A stretch of DNA of 41,745 nucleotides from Acidobacteriota bacterium. Lineage in GTDB: Bacteria > Acidobacteriota > Vicinamibacteria > Vicinamibacterales > CAVVIG01. Both the position numbers and the translations under genes were made by a program. The notes beneath the pieces were generated by a model. The model did no database searches, was not told the origin of the DNA, and was given only the letters and a program-made list of their open reading frames with translations. Each line of letters opens with the position of its first letter. Position 1 is the first letter of the stretch. Location of the stretch: contig JAHFUI010000017.1 in assembly GCA_023265175.1 (NCBI GenBank), positions 1 to 41,745 of the forward strand, read 5' to 3'. Shown piece after piece: positions 30,036 to 38,490 of this stretch.

Positions 30036-31148
30036 TCAGGGGCGTCGATAAAACGGCATCGGCACGACGCGGGCGCGGGCCCGACGGCTGCGGATGTCCA
30101 CGCCGATCTCGGTGCCAGGCGCCGCGTACGCGATCGGCAGATACGCCATGCCAATGGCCTTCTTGAGGAACGGCGTCTGCGTCCCGCTCGTCACGCGCCC
30201 ACATGTCTCGCCGTTGATGAAGACCTCGTGTCCATGGCGCGCGATTCCGGGATCGAGCATCTCGAAGCCAACCAGTTTCCGGCTGGGCCCCTGGCTCTTC
30301 TGCTCGCGGAGCGCGGCTGCTCCGTTGAAGTCGCCTTTCTTCCAGCCGACGATCCATTCCAGGCCGGCCTCGAGCGGCGTCGTCGTGTCATCGATGTCCT
30401 GACCGTACAACCGCATCGATGCCTCGAGCCGGAGGGTGTCGCGCGCCCCGAGTCCCGCAGGAATCAAATCCACCGCCTGGCCGGCACTGAGAATGGCCTG
30501 CCAGACGCGCTCGGCCGATTGCGGCGGCACGAACACCTCGAATCCATTCTCGCCCGTATAGCCAGTGCGCGAGACAGTGGCGCGCACGTTCGCCACCTCG
30601 CCGTGCGCGAACCGGTAGTACTTCATGCCCGGCAGATCGATCTCCGTGAGCGACCCCAGCACGTCGAGCGCAGCCGGCCCCTGTACGGACAGCAGCGCGT
30701 ACCGCGAGCTGGCGTCCACGGCGACGACATCACCGGCGGTCTTGATCTCGTTGTCGATCCACGCGAAATCCTTCTCGGTATTGGCGGCGTTGACGACGAG
30801 CAGGAAGTGTTGCGGCGCGAGGCGGTACACGAGCAGATCGTCCACGAACGTGCCGCGCGCGGTGAGCAACGCTGAATACTGCGCCTGTCCGACCTGCAAC
30901 GCCGAGGCGTCATTGGACGAGATCCGCTGGACGCCGGCCAACGCGTCCGTGCCGGCGATCTCAATTTCGCCCATGTGACTCACGTCGAAGAGACCGGCGC
31001 GCGTCCGAACGGCCATGTGCTCGTCCACGATGCCGGAATACTCGAGGGGCATGTCCCACCCACCAAACGGGACCATCTTCGCGCCGGCGGCGCGATGGCG
31101 GGCGTGGAGCGGTGTTTTCTTGAGGGAAGTGTCGGTGACCGGTTCCAT
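30036..31148 (-). CDS. gcvT: Aminomethyltransferase, glycine cleavage T protein
   Basis: 370 residues from the ATG at 31148 (MEPVTDTSLKKTPLHARHRA); the open frame continues far upstream, but without T-protein sequence. Conserved blocks include GAKMVPFGGWDMPLEYSGI, LFDVSHMGEIEI, the NDASALQVGQAQYSALL region, and GLGARDTLRLEASMRLYGQD. It transfers the methylene group from GcvH to tetrahydrofolate, releasing ammonia. It is the first gene of the gcvT-H-P set and starts 57 bp after the stop of the preceding secreted-protein gene. No glycine riboswitch consensus is visible in that short gap. Confidence 0.96.
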   Translation of the reverse strand: MEPVTDTSLKKTPLHARHRAAGAKMVPFGGWDMPLEYSGIVDEHMAVRTRAGLFDVSHMGEIEIAGTDALAGVQRISSNDASALQVGQAQYSALLTARGTFVDDLLVYRLAPQHFLLVVNAANTEKDFAWIDNEIKTAGDVVAVDASSRYALLSVQGPAALDVLGSLTEIDLPGMKYYRFAHGEVANVRATVSRTGYTGENGFEVFVPPQSAERVWQAILSAGQAVDLIPAGLGARDTLRLEASMRLYGQDIDDTTTPLEAGLEWIVGWKKGDFNGAAALREQKSQGPSRKLVGFEMLDPGIARHGHEVFINGETCGRVTSGTQTPFLKKAIGMAYLPIAYAAPGTEIGVDIRSRRARARVVPMPFYRRP

Positions 31149-31204: not shown

Positions 31205-32647
31205 TCAATGATCCGGGGCAGATCGGACCAAATGCGCATAAGCCGTAGGCTCGGGGCCGTCGGGCGCAACAGTGATCAGCGGCGGCTCGATCGCAGGCGC
31301 CAGGCCGTCGCATTCCGCGCTCAATGCCCACGCGCCCGGCTCGGGCAGGTCGAACCAATAGACGCTCGATGCACCCGTCGCGCGAACAGTCGCGAGGCCC
31401 AGGGTCCCAAGAGGCCCGGTGGCAAACAGCTCGCACATCGCCGGATCGGACAGGCGCACGGTCGCTCGCCTCAGCCCGGAAAGTGTGACGTCGCCGAGCA
31501 CGACCTCGTCGGCGTTGATGTGGCTCGGTACCGCGAAATGGCGTGAGGCATTGTCGGGACCGGCGATTTGAACCGTCCCCGTCCTGTCCAGCGGAAGCGT
31601 GAGGCTGAAGCGGCCGTCCAGCCCGCTGTAGGTGTCCTCGACCAGGTGGTCGCGGGGATCGACGCTCGCCATCCACGCCGTTGGGTCCGGCACGAATCGG
31701 ATGCGTGCGCCGGCGACAGGAAGCGCCCTCTGCAGGACACGACCGGTCAGCCGTGCTGGCGGAGTCAGCCGGATCACGAGCGGCTCGCTCACCACACTGA
31801 CTGACGCGGTTCCGCGACCGCGCGACGGGTGCCTCGCCACGACATACCATGAACCGGCTTCCAACCGATCGAACACAAAGGTGCCGTCGGCGCTCGAGCG
31901 CGCTTTCGCGCGACGAATGAGCACGGGTGGCTGACCAGGCGATCGCCCTCGATCCTCCGACATTGTCAACGGTTCGAAGAGCTCAACGTCGGCACCGTCA
32001 ACGTTCTGGGTCGCACGGTCCTCGACCCGGCCCGTCATCGAAAAAGGAGGCGTCAGCGACACATAGAACGGAACATCGGGTGGACCTGACGCGATCGCCG
32101 GCGTTGACAGACGTTTCGAGGCAAACGCGGCGCCCTCAATCAACACGTACGCGTCGGGGTCGAGCGGTTCTCCGGTCAACCAGAACGCCGACTGCGACAA
32201 CCGGCTCACATGGACGGCCGAGTCCTGGATTGGCGTCAGCCGTTGCGTTTGAGGACGCGCGGCCGAGCGTTCAGGCTTCCAGGCGATGACGCGCAAGTCC
32301 CGAAGGTCGTCCGGCGTTGCTCCTCCATCTTGGACGAGCAAGAGCCGTCCCCACGACGCGATCGTCAACGGCGTGTCGACATTCGCGACGCCGATCGGGA
32401 ACGAGACCAGCCTAGGATCGGCGGCGACGACGACAACGCCCGGCGAACCGGCCGGTAGGCGGCATCTCCAGGTGCTCCGAAACGTCAACTCACAGTTCTG
32501 CTCGCCGGCGATGCCGTCGGCAGGGAGCCACAAGATGCGTGACGGCGGTCCCAGCGACACGGGAATGGGACCAGTCACTTCATAACGGTCCGGCGTCTGG
32601 ATCGCGGCCAAGGCGAGCAGCAACGCCGCGGCGCACCACGTCATCAT
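31205..32647 (-). CDS. Secreted protein with carboxypeptidase-regulatory-like domains
   Basis: 480 residues with a signal peptide (MMTWCAAALLLALAAIQT). The body is rich in beta strands and holds at least two carboxypeptidase regulatory-like (CarbopepD_reg) modules, each with the pattern of TGRV, a V-x-G-A-x-V/I strand, then a D/S-x-x-G-x-F-x-F/L turn: about residues 205-290 (FSMTGRVEDRATQNVDGADV with SADGTFVFDRLEAGSW) and 300-390 (LTGRVLQRALPVAGARIRF with SGLDGRFSLTLPL). Such domains bind or stabilise surface or cell-envelope partners. Its ATG overlaps the ABC ATPase stop by 4 bp. It is the last gene of the ABC operon. Confidence 0.78.
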   Translation of the reverse strand: MMTWCAAALLLALAAIQTPDRYEVTGPIPVSLGPPSRILWLPADGIAGEQNCELTFRSTWRCRLPAGSPGVVVVAADPRLVSFPIGVANVDTPLTIASWGRLLLVQDGGATPDDLRDLRVIAWKPERSAARPQTQRLTPIQDSAVHVSRLSQSAFWLTGEPLDPDAYVLIEGAAFASKRLSTPAIASGPPDVPFYVSLTPPFSMTGRVEDRATQNVDGADVELFEPLTMSEDRGRSPGQPPVLIRRAKARSSADGTFVFDRLEAGSWYVVARHPSRGRGTASVSVVSEPLVIRLTPPARLTGRVLQRALPVAGARIRFVPDPTAWMASVDPRDHLVEDTYSGLDGRFSLTLPLDRTGTVQIAGPDNASRHFAVPSHINADEVVLGDVTLSGLRRATVRLSDPAMCELFATGPLGTLGLATVRATGASSVYWFDLPEPGAWALSAECDGLAPAIEPPLITVAPDGPEPTAYAHLVRSAPDH

Positions 32648-33303
32648 CTTTCACCTCGCGAACGATCGAACGCCTCGAACAGGCGCGTGCTTCGATCGCG
32701 ATCCGCGATCCCGGCGCATACGACCGTTTCTTCTGTGAGGCGGCCGTTCACGAGGAACACACACCGATCGCAGACGCCGGCGAGATCGTGAATGCGGTGC
32801 GACGACACCATGACACCCACGCTTGCGGATCGTTGTGCAAGCAGGGCGGCTGACAGCCATCGACTTGCGTCCGGGTCCAGGCCTTCCCACGGTTCGTCGA
32901 GCAGCAGCAGCGCCGCGTCAGACTTGGCAAGCATCGCTTCGAGACCGAGGCGTTGACGCGTTCCGCGCGACAGGACGCCAAAGGATTGCACAGGCGCCGA
33001 CCCTGCCGCCGGGGATTGCCAGAGGGCGAGCCATCGTCTCGCCGGCACGTTAGGCGGCAGCGTCTGCTCGCCTCCGAAGTAGCGAATGCCCTCATCGCCT
33101 GGAGCGGCTGCGACGCTCACTGATCCAGTCGTCGGGCGAAGTAGCCCCGCACACACCCGCAACATCGTCGTCTTGCCGGCGCCGTTGGGGCCGATGAGAC
33201 CCAGAATCTCGCCCCGATGCACGTCGAGTGTCACGCCGTTCAAGGCGACCCGCCCCCGGTAATGTTTCGAGACGTTGAGGATCTCGGCCGCTCGTGTCGT
33301 CAT
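32644..33303 (-). CDS. ABC transporter ATP-binding protein
   Basis: 219 residues from the ATG at 33303; the upstream open frame is only a shadow. Motifs are Walker A GPNGAGKTTMLRV, a modified signature FGVLSRGTRQRLGL (LSRGT in place of LSGGQ), Walker B ALLLLDEPWEGLDPDA and the switch histidine in VSSHRIHDL. It energises the adjacent permease. Both its ends overlap neighbours by 4 bp (ATGA at 32644-32647 and 33300-33303), so the four genes are translated as one unit. The CcmA/NatA-like type is used for export of lipids, peptides or antibiotics. Confidence 0.92.
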   Translation of the reverse strand: MTTRAAEILNVSKHYRGRVALNGVTLDVHRGEILGLIGPNGAGKTTMLRVCAGLLRPTTGSVSVAAAPGDEGIRYFGGEQTLPPNVPARRWLALWQSPAAGSAPVQSFGVLSRGTRQRLGLEAMLAKSDAALLLLDEPWEGLDPDASRWLSAALLAQRSASVGVMVSSHRIHDLAGVCDRCVFLVNGRLTEETVVCAGIADRDRSTRLFEAFDRSRGER

Positions 33304-34004
33304 GCCGTGTCCTTCAAGATCCCGTCGAACCGCACAATCAGCCAGGCGCCAATCGTCCAGGCGACAAACGCGGATCCAAATACGAGGATGAGCGTGCGAG
33401 CTCCCGCGACTTGCGGGCGCGACACGAGGAAGGCCGGAAACACCAGAATGGCGCCCGCCTTCGGCAGCGCCTCGGTCCACGTCGCGTCGCCCGCCATGAA
33501 CATCTGTTGGAGGGGATGCATCTGGCGCGCGGCCGCGAGCGCAAACAGCAGGGCGAGCCACAGGACGCCGCCGGCGTGACGAACCAACCGCAATGTCACG
33601 GTCCACGCCGCGGCCGACACCCACACGAATGCCGCCAGACCTGAAATCGAGACCGAAGGAGGCCAGTGGCGCGGCCTCGCGACGAGGTCGATGCCGGCGA
33701 GTAGCGCCCACAGGGCGAATCCCGGCGCAGCCGATAGCGCCCAGTGGACCCGCGCAATCGGCCAACGCGATGACCGTCCGGCCAGAATCGAATCGAAATG
33801 CCCGCGTGTGGCGCGTTCGGAGTACCCCATCGACGCGGCGAACATGTGAAGAAACAGTGCCAACCCGATCGTCTGGTCGAGCTCGTCGGGAGCGTTCCAC
33901 GCGAGAAACAGTCCGTAGGCGATGAGCAACTCGCCGACCAAGAGGTGTGCGCGCGTCGGCCGAAGCACCACCCAGAAGAAGCGCCATGGCGCCGGTTGCC
34001 TCAT
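33300..34004 (-). CDS. ABC transporter permease, six or seven helices
   Basis: 234 residues from the ATG at 34004, which overlaps the upstream stop by 4 bp. Hydrophobic segments lie near residues 23-38 (VGELLIAYGLFLAW), 48-65, 90-110, 120-140, 148-162, 182-197 and 203-225 (LILVFGSAFVAWTIGAWLIV). There is no recognisable FtsX or ABC-2 core motif, but the size and position suit an ABC-2-like export permease working with the next gene. It is probably a half-size exporter acting as a dimer. Family call rests on context as much as on sequence. Confidence 0.75.
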   Translation of the reverse strand: MRQPAPWRFFWVVLRPTRAHLLVGELLIAYGLFLAWNAPDELDQTIGLALFLHMFAASMGYSERATRGHFDSILAGRSSRWPIARVHWALSAAPGFALWALLAGIDLVARPRHWPPSVSISGLAAFVWVSAAAWTVTLRLVRHAGGVLWLALLFALAAARQMHPLQQMFMAGDATWTEALPKAGAILVFPAFLVSRPQVAGARTLILVFGSAFVAWTIGAWLIVRFDGILKDTA

Positions 34005-34954: not shown

Positions 34955-35182
34955 CTATCGGCCGATGATCGCCCGCCGGACGCAATCGGTGAAATCGAGC
35001 TCACAGTCCAGACCGTTCAACCACAGGTCCAGCCAATCCATCTGGTTCGCGGCTTGGGCGTAGCAGTCCTTCAGTTTCATGAAGCAGCCCGCTGACGCGG
35101 GCCTAGCATCGCTCAAGATGAAGACGGCGATGGCCAGGGCAGGAAGGAACTGAACCAGACGCTTGATGATGGTGTTCTTCAC
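34955..35182 (-). CDS. Small secreted protein with twin CX6C motifs
   Basis: 75 residues starting at a GTG with AAGGAG 4 nt upstream, a strong ribosome-binding site that decides the start (a longer frame reaches 35584). Residues 1-30 are a signal peptide (KNTIIKRLVQFLPALAIAVF, cleaved at the ASA-G boundary near residue 31). The mature chain of about 45 residues has four cysteines at 33, 40, 60 and 67: two CX6C pairs separated by 19 residues, with WLDLWLNGLDC and a DCVRRAI end. The symmetric layout suggests two helices joined by disulfides (helical hairpin). I know no named family. It lies just ahead of the ABC operon and behind the regulator gene. Confidence 0.72.
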   Translation of the reverse strand: MKNTIIKRLVQFLPALAIAVFILSDARPASAGCFMKLKDCYAQAANQMDWLDLWLNGLDCELDFTDCVRRAIIGR

Positions 35183-35194
35183 AGCGCTCCTTTC

Positions 35195-35231
35195 GGGACG
35201 ATTTGTCCGCGACATCCCCAAGGGATGTCGC
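35195..35231 (-). promoter_or_regulatory. Two adjacent hairpins in the leader of the small secreted-protein gene
   Basis: A perfect 10-bp inverted repeat GCGACATCCC/GGGATGTCGC with a 3-nt loop (35209-35231) sits next to a GGAC-N5-GTCC stem (35196-35208), both just upstream of the AAGGAG site. No T-run follows on the minus strand, so it is not a terminator. It could be a riboregulatory leader or a protein-binding operator. Confidence 0.45.
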
Positions 35232-35390
35232 CTGCAGGGTGACGCGCGACCTCCCAGCGTGATACACGCCGCCCGCCTCGCCGACCCCGTTCGCCGGAGA
35301 CACCCGGCGTTTGCGGCGCACGCGTTGCGCGCCGCGAGGCTGCGTCCGGCCGAAGCCAAACGCCTCACGTCTTCCGCGACAGTCCGCTCG

Positions 35391-36902
35391 CTACACGTCG
35401 ACGCTCGCGTCGCACGGCGCGTCCTCGACCGCCGCCGTAATATTTGGTACAGGTAGTACGGGTAGTACAGGTAGTACCGGCGGATCGAGCTTGCCGTCGG
35501 TTTCCCATCCGCCGCCTCCGGCGGCAGAACCGTCACCGGTCTGACAGCGGAGATATCCCTGCAGCGTGTGATAACTGATATCAAGCACGCGACAGGCTTC
35601 GCGCTTATTTCCCTGGCAGCGCTCCAGCACGAGCCGCGCGTACCGGCTGCCCCACGCGCGGAGCGTTTCGCGGCCCTCGATCGACGGCATCAGCACGGCC
35701 GCGTAATCGCCCCGGACGGTCAGCGGCAGATCGTCGAGCTCGATCACGTCCGTGGCGGCCAGGGCCACGGCCCGTTCCATGAGCCGTTCGAGCTCGCGCA
35801 CGTTGCCTGGCCAGTCGTACGCGACGAGGGCGTCGGCGGCGGCGGTTGACAGCCGAAGCGCCCGCGTCGCCCGATGGCGCTCGAGAAAGTACCGTGCAAG
35901 CTCGAGAATGTCGGCACGCCGCTCGCGCAACCCGGGAACCCGGATGTCGACGCCGCTCAAGCGGTAATACACATCCGGCCGAAACAATTGCCGGTCGACA
36001 AGGGGTAGCAGACCGCGATTGGTCGCGGCGACGATCCTGATGTCGATCCGATGCGTGCCGTTGCCACCGACGCGCTCGACGGCCAGATCCTGGATGGCCC
36101 GCAGCAGCTTCGCCTGGGCGGACAACGAGAGGTCGGATACTTCGTCAAGGAAGAGCGTCCCGCCATCAGCGTATTCAAACTTCCCCCGGCGACCCCTCAC
36201 GCCGGTTGCCGTCCGATCCTCGATGCCAAACAGTTCCGCCTCCAGCAGCGTCTCCACGAGGGCAGCACAGTTGATGGCGACGAACGGCCCGTGTCGGCGC
36301 CGACTCAACTCATGGATCTGACGAGCGACGAGCTCCTTCCCGACGCCGCTTTCTCCCTCCAGCAACACAGTGAAATCGGTCGCCGCCACTCGTTCGATGG
36401 TCGACCGCAACGCCTGCATCGCCGGGGTGGACCCAATGAGCGGCGCAGCCCCATCCCGTCGCAGCCTGGGCATCCCGGCCAGTCCGAATCGCGCCAGCCG
36501 ACTGCGGTCACGCTCGATTTCCAGGACGAGCGCGCCGATGTGTGCCGCGACGCCCAGGATCTGAAAGTCCCACTCGCCGAGCCGACATCCGGGATCGAAG
36601 GTCGCTTCGAGAAGGCCCTGCGTTGACGGATCCGCGCCCGCGACCTCGAGCGTGATCGATTCGGCGCCGCCGGTTGCATCCGCTGAGCCGATCCAGCGGC
36701 TCGCGGTTTCACGAAGCTGAATCGAACGGACCGGGACCATCCGCCGGAGGGATTCTTCGAACGCGCCGCGCATGAGCGAGATGTCGCCGCGGGCATCGAG
36801 AGTACGCGTCAGCGACGCCAAGAGCTGTCCGAACGCCTCGCGCCTGTCGCGCCGGCGCGGACCGTAATCGCTCTCTGATCGAGTAGTGGCAGCGGTCATC
36901 AT
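35391..36902 (-). CDS. AAA+ enhancer-binding-type regulator (NtrC-like) with altered L1 loop
   Basis: 503 residues from the ATG at 36902 (AGGAG 4 nt upstream). The N-terminal 150 residues form a GAF-like sensory domain. The AAA+ core has Walker A GESGVGKE (183-190), Walker B GGTLFLDEVSDL (247-258), sensor-type VAATNRG and the arginine fingers of FRPDVYYRLSG (308-314). The C-terminal Fis-type helix-turn-helix is at 418-452. The sigma-54-contacting loop, normally GAFTGA, reads RTATGV, so the critical Phe is Ala and sigma-54 contact is doubtful. The extreme C-terminus (PPVLPVLPVLPVP) is encoded by a 9-bp tandem repeat. It is a good candidate regulator of the downstream small-protein/ABC operon. 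Confidence 0.85.
   Translation of the reverse strand: MMTAATTRSESDYGPRRRDRREAFGQLLASLTRTLDARGDISLMRGAFEESLRRMVPVRSIQLRETASRWIGSADATGGAESITLEVAGADPSTQGLLEATFDPGCRLGEWDFQILGVAAHIGALVLEIERDRSRLARFGLAGMPRLRRDGAAPLIGSTPAMQALRSTIERVAATDFTVLLEGESGVGKELVARQIHELSRRRHGPFVAINCAALVETLLEAELFGIEDRTATGVRGRRGKFEYADGGTLFLDEVSDLSLSAQAKLLRAIQDLAVERVGGNGTHRIDIRIVAATNRGLLPLVDRQLFRPDVYYRLSGVDIRVPGLRERRADILELARYFLERHRATRALRLSTAAADALVAYDWPGNVRELERLMERAVALAATDVIELDDLPLTVRGDYAAVLMPSIEGRETLRAWGSRYARLVLERCQGNKREACRVLDISYHTLQGYLRCQTGDGSAAGGGGWETDGKLDPPVLPVLPVLPVPNITAAVEDAPCDASVDV
35452..35478. repeat. Three tandem 9-bp units GGTAGTACN in the regulator 3' end
   Basis: GGTAGTACG, GGTAGTACA and GGTAGTACC follow one another (35452-35478), preceded by a partial unit. 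They code for the repeated PVL residues of the regulator tail. The period keeps the frame. Confidence 0.85.
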
Positions 36903-38083: not shown

Positions 38084-38431
38084 TCACGGCTGCTGCGGCG
38101 TGACGTGCTCAGGCTTGGCCGCGCCGACGCTGATTTGCGTTCTCAGTTTCAGGAAGTTCTTCTCACCAACGCCGCGGACGTTCATCAACTCCTCGACCTT
38201 CTTGAACGGTCCGTTCTTCTGGCGGTACTCGATGATGCGGCCCGCGGTTTTGACGCCGATGCCGGGCAGCTTTTCGAGATCCGCGACGATGGCGGTATTG
38301 ATGTTGACGGTGCCAACGGCGACCGGTTTGGCCGCCGAACGCGCGGCCGCGGTCGACTGCGACGCCTGTGCCGGCGGCGACACGGCGCACAGAGAGACGA
38401 GGGCGATGACGGACAGCAGTCTTCGAAACAT
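38084..38431 (-). CDS. ComEA-like secreted helix-hairpin-helix protein
   Basis: 115 residues from the ATG at 38431, with AAGGAGG 6 nt upstream. A signal peptide (MFRRLLSVIALVSLCAVS) precedes a helix-hairpin-helix pair: VNINTAIVADLEKLPGIGVK and FKKVEELMNVRGVGEKNFLKL. ComEA-type proteins bind double-stranded DNA at the cell surface during natural transformation; closely similar domains also occur in competence-like proteins without a transformation role. With the downstream prepilin and PilZ genes it suggests a small DNA-uptake or pilus operon. Confidence 0.88.
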   Translation of the reverse strand: MFRRLLSVIALVSLCAVSPPAQASQSTAAARSAAKPVAVGTVNINTAIVADLEKLPGIGVKTAGRIIEYRQKNGPFKKVEELMNVRGVGEKNFLKLRTQISVGAAKPEHVTPQQP

Positions 38432-38490
38432 TCCAGTCCTCCTTGGTGATGGCATCGCGCGACGAATGTCGTCGCGATCGACGCGTAAAG

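Follow-up and report, generated by a model that had tools for sequence, protein, structure and literature searches.

A conserved, predicted exported twin-CX6C protein encoded beside a predicted beta-propeller protein and ABC transporter genes in Acidobacteriota

Alpha-hairpinins are short secreted helix-turn-helix peptides held together by two nested disulfides, C1–C4 and C2–C3 (PMC7191063). Mitochondrial twin-CX9C (CHCH) proteins, which reside in the intermembrane space, have a CX9C motif in both helices and are imported by MIA40. In Bacteroidota, NVEALA peptides (PF14055) are paired with 6-bladed propellers (PF17170), a pairing that we use as a lead only. Here we describe a gene for a 75-residue, predicted exported protein with two CX6C motifs, found on contig JAHFUI010000017.1 of an Acidobacteriota bacterium (assembly GCA_023265175.1); the whole analysed stretch of 41,745 nucleotides is called the window. 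Gene finders routinely overlook proteins this small, and the gene described here opens a cassette found repeatedly in different classes of a phylum that is large and mostly uncultured.

Sequence comparison shows that the twin-CX6C gene is real, conserved and under purifying selection. The coordinates, length, GTG start, AAGGAG Shine–Dalgarno sequence and C-x6-C-x19-C-x6-C pattern reported in the first-pass annotation of the window were all exact, and the strand is minus. The precursor consists of a predicted Sec signal peptide, VKNTIIKRLVQFLPALAIAVFILSDARPASA, followed by the mature part, GCFMKLKDCYAQAANQMDWLDLWLNGLDCELDFTDCVRRAIIGR, and its hydropathy reaches a maximum of 2.06 in residues 5–23. 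Assuming cleavage after ASA, the mature part has 44 residues, close to the 45 or so estimated earlier. The gene had been described as covered by a longer shadow frame; this open reading frame (35584..34955, 209 residues, TTG start) is in fact the same frame extended upstream. Homologues begin at or close to the short start (35182). Conservation of this start site together with purifying selection rules out both the 209-residue frame as the real gene and the 75-residue frame as a spurious one. The ratio of nonsynonymous to synonymous substitution rates (dN/dS) was approximately 0.04–0.11 in three close pairs of one subgroup, 0.18–0.41 in most other pairs and 0.71 in one pair; between the window protein and its nearest homologue it was 0.19, near saturation. 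At the lipobox position the window protein reads ASAGC, one homologue (L033) reads LAGC and the other homologues have no lipobox. A lipoprotein was ruled out for the window protein, which has no Leu at position -3 before the first cysteine. The window protein has no match in Pfam or NCBIfam, and 24 members of the family show scattered weak matches only.

A first search in 149 relatives found seven further peptide loci. Six of these (L002, L003, L004, L006, L007 and L008) have the complete pattern with 6-19-6 spacing, and in L034 (= L005; 3638-3745, minus strand) the peptide gene is 5'-truncated and has lost the signal peptide and the first two cysteines, with the rest of the cassette intact. 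Later profile searches extended the family to other parts of the phylum. Its members come from the window's order, from G406 (L070), from the class of genome G508 (hereafter the second class) and from G226, G245 and G236. About 44 distinct intact sequences from at least three Acidobacteriota lineages were obtained, and our comparisons indicate that the peptide is an unnamed family in this phylum. Homologues had been expected to keep the four cysteines, and both CX6C pairs were present in every intact homologue inspected. The loop between the pairs is 19 residues in the window's order and L070, 17–20 in the second class and 29 in G226, G245 and G236, whose peptides have an additional third pair of cysteines. 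In an alignment of 24 homologues (A7), the four cysteines are the sole invariant columns, and the pattern is therefore not a product of chance. The exceptions are L034, which is truncated, L104, which keeps a 28-residue remnant with a stop, and one stray paralogue in G393 (L105 11553-11804). This paralogue is not beside a propeller gene, and it has C1 replaced by Tyr and C4 by Leu while keeping C2 and C3. Paired loss of C1 and C4, although a single event, favors a nested C1–C4/C2–C3 pairing. Among the genomes of the window's order, a ninth, weak peptide match in G028 (E 0.006) was an unrelated frame without such cysteines. Diverged twin-CX6C genes occur in tandem pairs in L155 (6320-6795), L156 (6110-6585) and L160 (6089-6555). 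A different, more cysteine-rich peptide of exported type, CTKNFEKCASWCATHGGGAGCSGICEDRYVTC, is encoded between two propeller genes in L157 (2236-2445, G386), which may point to a more general occurrence of small cysteine peptides next to propellers.

Structure prediction is consistent with the helical hairpin proposed by the first-pass annotation. The AlphaFold2 model of the mature part, made with 12 sequences, has a predicted local distance difference test score (pLDDT) of 87.5 and a predicted template modeling score (pTM) of 0.54, with helix 2-13, a turn and helix 19-42. The CX6C motif corresponds to i, i+7 spacing, hence each pair of cysteines would lie on one face of a predicted helix, and we infer that C1–C4 and C2–C3 disulfides join the two helices. 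Foldseek gave no significant match with this model; several of its 23 weak matches were disulfide-stapled alpha-hairpinins or vicilin leader peptides. VIA-align gave Z 6.5 against the Jug r 2 leader (root-mean-square deviation 0.8 A over 38 residues), Z 6.1 against VBP-8 and Z 5.4 against nigellin. Because unrelated helical pairs reach nearly equal scores, these values point to a common arrangement and not to kinship. A sequence search of solved structures with the peptide found nothing significant.

The predicted fold thus resembles that of the plant alpha-hairpinins (vicilin-buried peptides, VBP-8, Jug r 2 leader and nigellin) in having two antiparallel helices and a loop. However, alpha-hairpinins have a CX3C...CX3C pattern, whereas all intact members here have CX6C-X17-20-CX6C or CX6C-X29-CX6C and, in the model, a longer second helix. 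Moreover, the protein described here is bacterial, has no detectable sequence relation to alpha-hairpinins and stands in another gene context. The analogy with twin-CX9C proteins drawn earlier was sound in its logic, namely paired cysteines on two antiparallel helices, but it does not extend to the sequence, where the spacing is six in every intact member and no match was found. The peptide works like an alpha-hairpinin or a twin-CX9C protein in shape and is a member of neither, because it lacks the defining spacing of each. If the disulfide hairpin is true, it would be a bacterial shape counterpart of both, with a new spacing (twin CX6C), and a compact scaffold tolerant of loop length. Like the NVEALA peptides, it is small and exported; a search for PF14055 gave 0 of 9 cassette genomes above the cut-off and no match among the 24 members.

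In the window, the peptide gene is followed by genes for a secreted propeller protein, a putative permease, an ATP-binding cassette (ABC) transporter ATPase and a carboxypeptidase-regulatory-like (CpD) domain protein, all on the minus strand, and the last four genes overlap by 4 bases at each junction (Table 1). This cassette had escaped the first-pass annotation. The propeller protein has no Pfam match. Its AlphaFold2 model (pLDDT 82.8, pTM 0.81) is all-beta, and Foldseek matched this model to beta-propellers with E values to 3.4e-9. The 234-residue membrane protein also has no Pfam match, and its role as a permease is suggested because its gene adjoins the ATPase gene. The same gene order was found in L031, L033, L035, L036 and L037. 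L034 shares it with its peptide gene truncated, and L032 shares it as far as the contig end. Every order-level locus that does not run into a contig end encodes the CpD protein. So does L070, where a genome of another family (G406) has all five cassette genes in this order without the flanking regulator. Profile searches found peptide and propeller in the identical 8 of 162 genomes of the order, genomes that are related and so do not count as independent events. In relatives without the cassette, the PilZ, regulator and gcvT genes are neighbors or close to each other. This empty site between the regulator and gcvT suggests gain or loss of the cassette at a single place.

Table 1. Features of the twin-CX6C cassette and its flanks, in window coordinates
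Feature	Coordinates	Strand	Basis
Twin-CX6C protein gene, 75 residues, GTG start, TAG stop	34955..35182	-	translation, homologues, alignments
Sec signal peptide (predicted), residues 1-31, end ARPASA, hydrophobic core ~residues 5-23	35090..35182	-	sequence, hydropathy
Mature part GCFMKLKDCYAQAANQMDWLDLWLNGLDCELDFTDCVRRAIIGR, 44 residues, two predicted helices	34958..35089	-	AlphaFold2
Shine–Dalgarno sequence AAGGAG	35187..35192	-	4 nucleotides ahead of GTG
Secreted beta-propeller protein (predicted fold), 302 residues	34001..34909	-	AlphaFold2, Foldseek, co-occurrence
Small integral membrane protein, 234 residues, putative permease of a two-part ABC transporter	33300..34004	-	hydropathy, synteny
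ABC transporter ATPase	32644..33303	-	PF00005 E 6.7e-17, synteny
CpD domain protein, last cassette gene in the window's order	31205..32647	-	PF13620 E 2.4e-10
gcvT, conserved gene flanking the cassette at the end opposite the regulator	30036..31148	-	PF01571 E 7.8e-97
Sigma-54-activator-like regulator, flank, not cassette-specific	35391..36902	-	PF00158 E 7e-58, motif

The second class has a related arrangement. A propeller gene follows the peptide gene in all fetched loci except L158, and these propellers match PF17170 and NHL, the former being the family paired with NVEALA peptides. The propeller profiles of the two classes are related (E 1.5e-5, probability 79.5). After the propeller comes a membrane-anchored redoxin with a CXXC motif in 28/28 cases, and an ABC permease and ATPase are usually next, either fused, split or divergent. 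The redoxin has an AhpC/TSA-like domain like the ResA/TlpA-like thiol-disulfide redoxins; however, it falls below the NCBIfam cut-off for ResA, always stands beside the peptide and propeller, and has no counterpart in the window's cassette. A sigma-54 promoter sequence, TGGCAY-N5-TTGC, matches at 9 or 10 of 10 positions ahead of 27 of the 29 second-class peptide genes that are first in their operon. It lies 39–67 bases ahead of the start, and shuffles of the same stretches gave such scores at most 1 in 200 times. L070 has a sigma-54 promoter sequence at -180. In several second-class loci (L071, L072, L073 and L074), the region ahead of the sigma-54 promoter contains inverted GTAAA-N6-TTTAC-like boxes, which are possible enhancer-binding sites.

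The peptide is nearly always found with the propeller and in most cases also with a membrane pump. This association suggests an undescribed small-protein envelope system. The literature, on the terms that we used, gave no description of the peptide family or of the cassette. We consider the chances evenly balanced that the Sec-exported hairpin peptide belongs to an envelope complex, as its small ligand or subunit, together with the propeller and the ABC transporter. Sec would export the helical-hairpin protein of about 44 residues, and outside the cytoplasm the C1–C4 and C2–C3 disulfides would staple its two helices. We infer that the peptide is bound by the secreted propeller with which it would be co-produced, and that the dedicated inner-membrane ABC transporter acts on the peptide or on the peptide–propeller pair, by export, release or energy coupling. 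The CXXC redoxin co-encoded in the second class may make or repair the disulfides, and sigma-54 may turn on production there. A wider proposal can be made only tentatively: a sigma-54-controlled system in at least two Acidobacteriota classes, in which a stapled hairpin mini-protein is a propeller ligand driven by a dedicated ABC transporter and is peptide-hormone-like or toxin-like. Peptide, propeller and permease, which have no annotated function, can now be tested as one unit.

Several observations weigh against a peptide–propeller–transporter complex. There are no ABC genes beside the peptide gene in L105, L110, L148, L155, L156 and L160, so that the pump is not strictly an obligatory part. 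No sequence relation is detectable between the permeases of the two classes, the redoxin is missing from the window's cassette and order, and no sigma-54 promoter is visible upstream of the peptide gene in the window's order. Partial cassettes also exist. One genome keeps the cassette beside a truncated peptide gene (L034), and G076 (L181) has permease and ATPase genes directly behind the regulator, with neither peptide nor propeller detected.

Alternatively, the peptide might be a bacteriocin or a peptide signal acting on other cells, with the ABC transporter for self-protection, a role known for transporters of the lantibiotic-protection type, while the propeller would serve in immunity or in some accessory function. 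The patchy distribution and the duplicated, diverged tandem copies in L155, L156 and L160 would fit this explanation. For the second-class ATPase, ABC ATPases of lantibiotic protection and drug resistance are among the closest NCBIfam models, although below cut-offs, and the hairpin shape is common to plant antimicrobial alpha-hairpinins (PMC7191063). However, the mature peptides have a mean charge of -0.8 (range -3 to +2), which makes them neutral to acidic, whereas most antimicrobial peptides are cationic. Purifying selection is strong in some groups, the chromosomal site between the regulator and gcvT is fixed in the order, no mobile-element signature was noticed, and the ABC protein has no peptidase domain. 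We therefore regard this explanation as unlikely. A C39-processed (double-glycine) bacteriocin is ruled out, as the signal ends in AxA and not GG and the ABC proteins match only ABC_tran and other P-loop families.

ABC transporters and redoxins are known to be paired in cytochrome c maturation. The peptide might be a thiol carrier or metal-binding protein, whose four cysteines would hold a metal ion or pass electrons to and from the redoxin, with the ABC transporter and propeller serving metal or cofactor insertion as in NosDFY or cytochrome c maturation. The invariance of the four cysteines and the CXXC redoxin encoded alongside are in line with such a role, and the weak structural neighbors include a periplasmic helical protein with bound cuprous ion (Z 5.0). 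Nevertheless, no further metal ligand such as His or Met is conserved, a single metal site would call for closer spacing than CX6C, and the window's order lacks the redoxin; the loss of exactly C1 and C4 in the G393 paralogue fits disulfide pairing better than a four-ligand site. This role is quite improbable. A small cysteine protein whose gene adjoins those of a propeller and an ABC transporter, and in one class that of a redoxin, also recalls the mau and qhp operons. The peptide could then be the small subunit of a quinoprotein-like dehydrogenase with the propeller as large subunit, as in methylamine or quinohemoprotein amine dehydrogenase. We rejected this as hardly credible because no invariant Trp column is available for a quinone cofactor; in addition, there are four cysteines only, and no radical-SAM or haem family match was obtained among the cassette proteins scanned.

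The regulator flanking the cassette does not appear to be dedicated to it, since 50 of 60 order genomes have it and most of these lack the cassette. Its GAFTGA loop reads RTATGV in the window, L031, L032, L033, L034, L036 and L037, and the regulator may act without sigma-54. PF04552 (sigma-54) found nothing in the window's genome. Loss of sigma-54 in the lineage was rejected, since most cassette-bearing relatives have sigma-54, and a gap in the assembly may explain the missing match. Most order-level loci offer an upstream GG-N10-GC box when one is sought, but such a box carries no meaning at this G+C content. A viral scan of the window was empty. Upstream of the regulator, a small exported ComEA-like helix-hairpin-helix protein (38084-38455, minus strand) is conserved.
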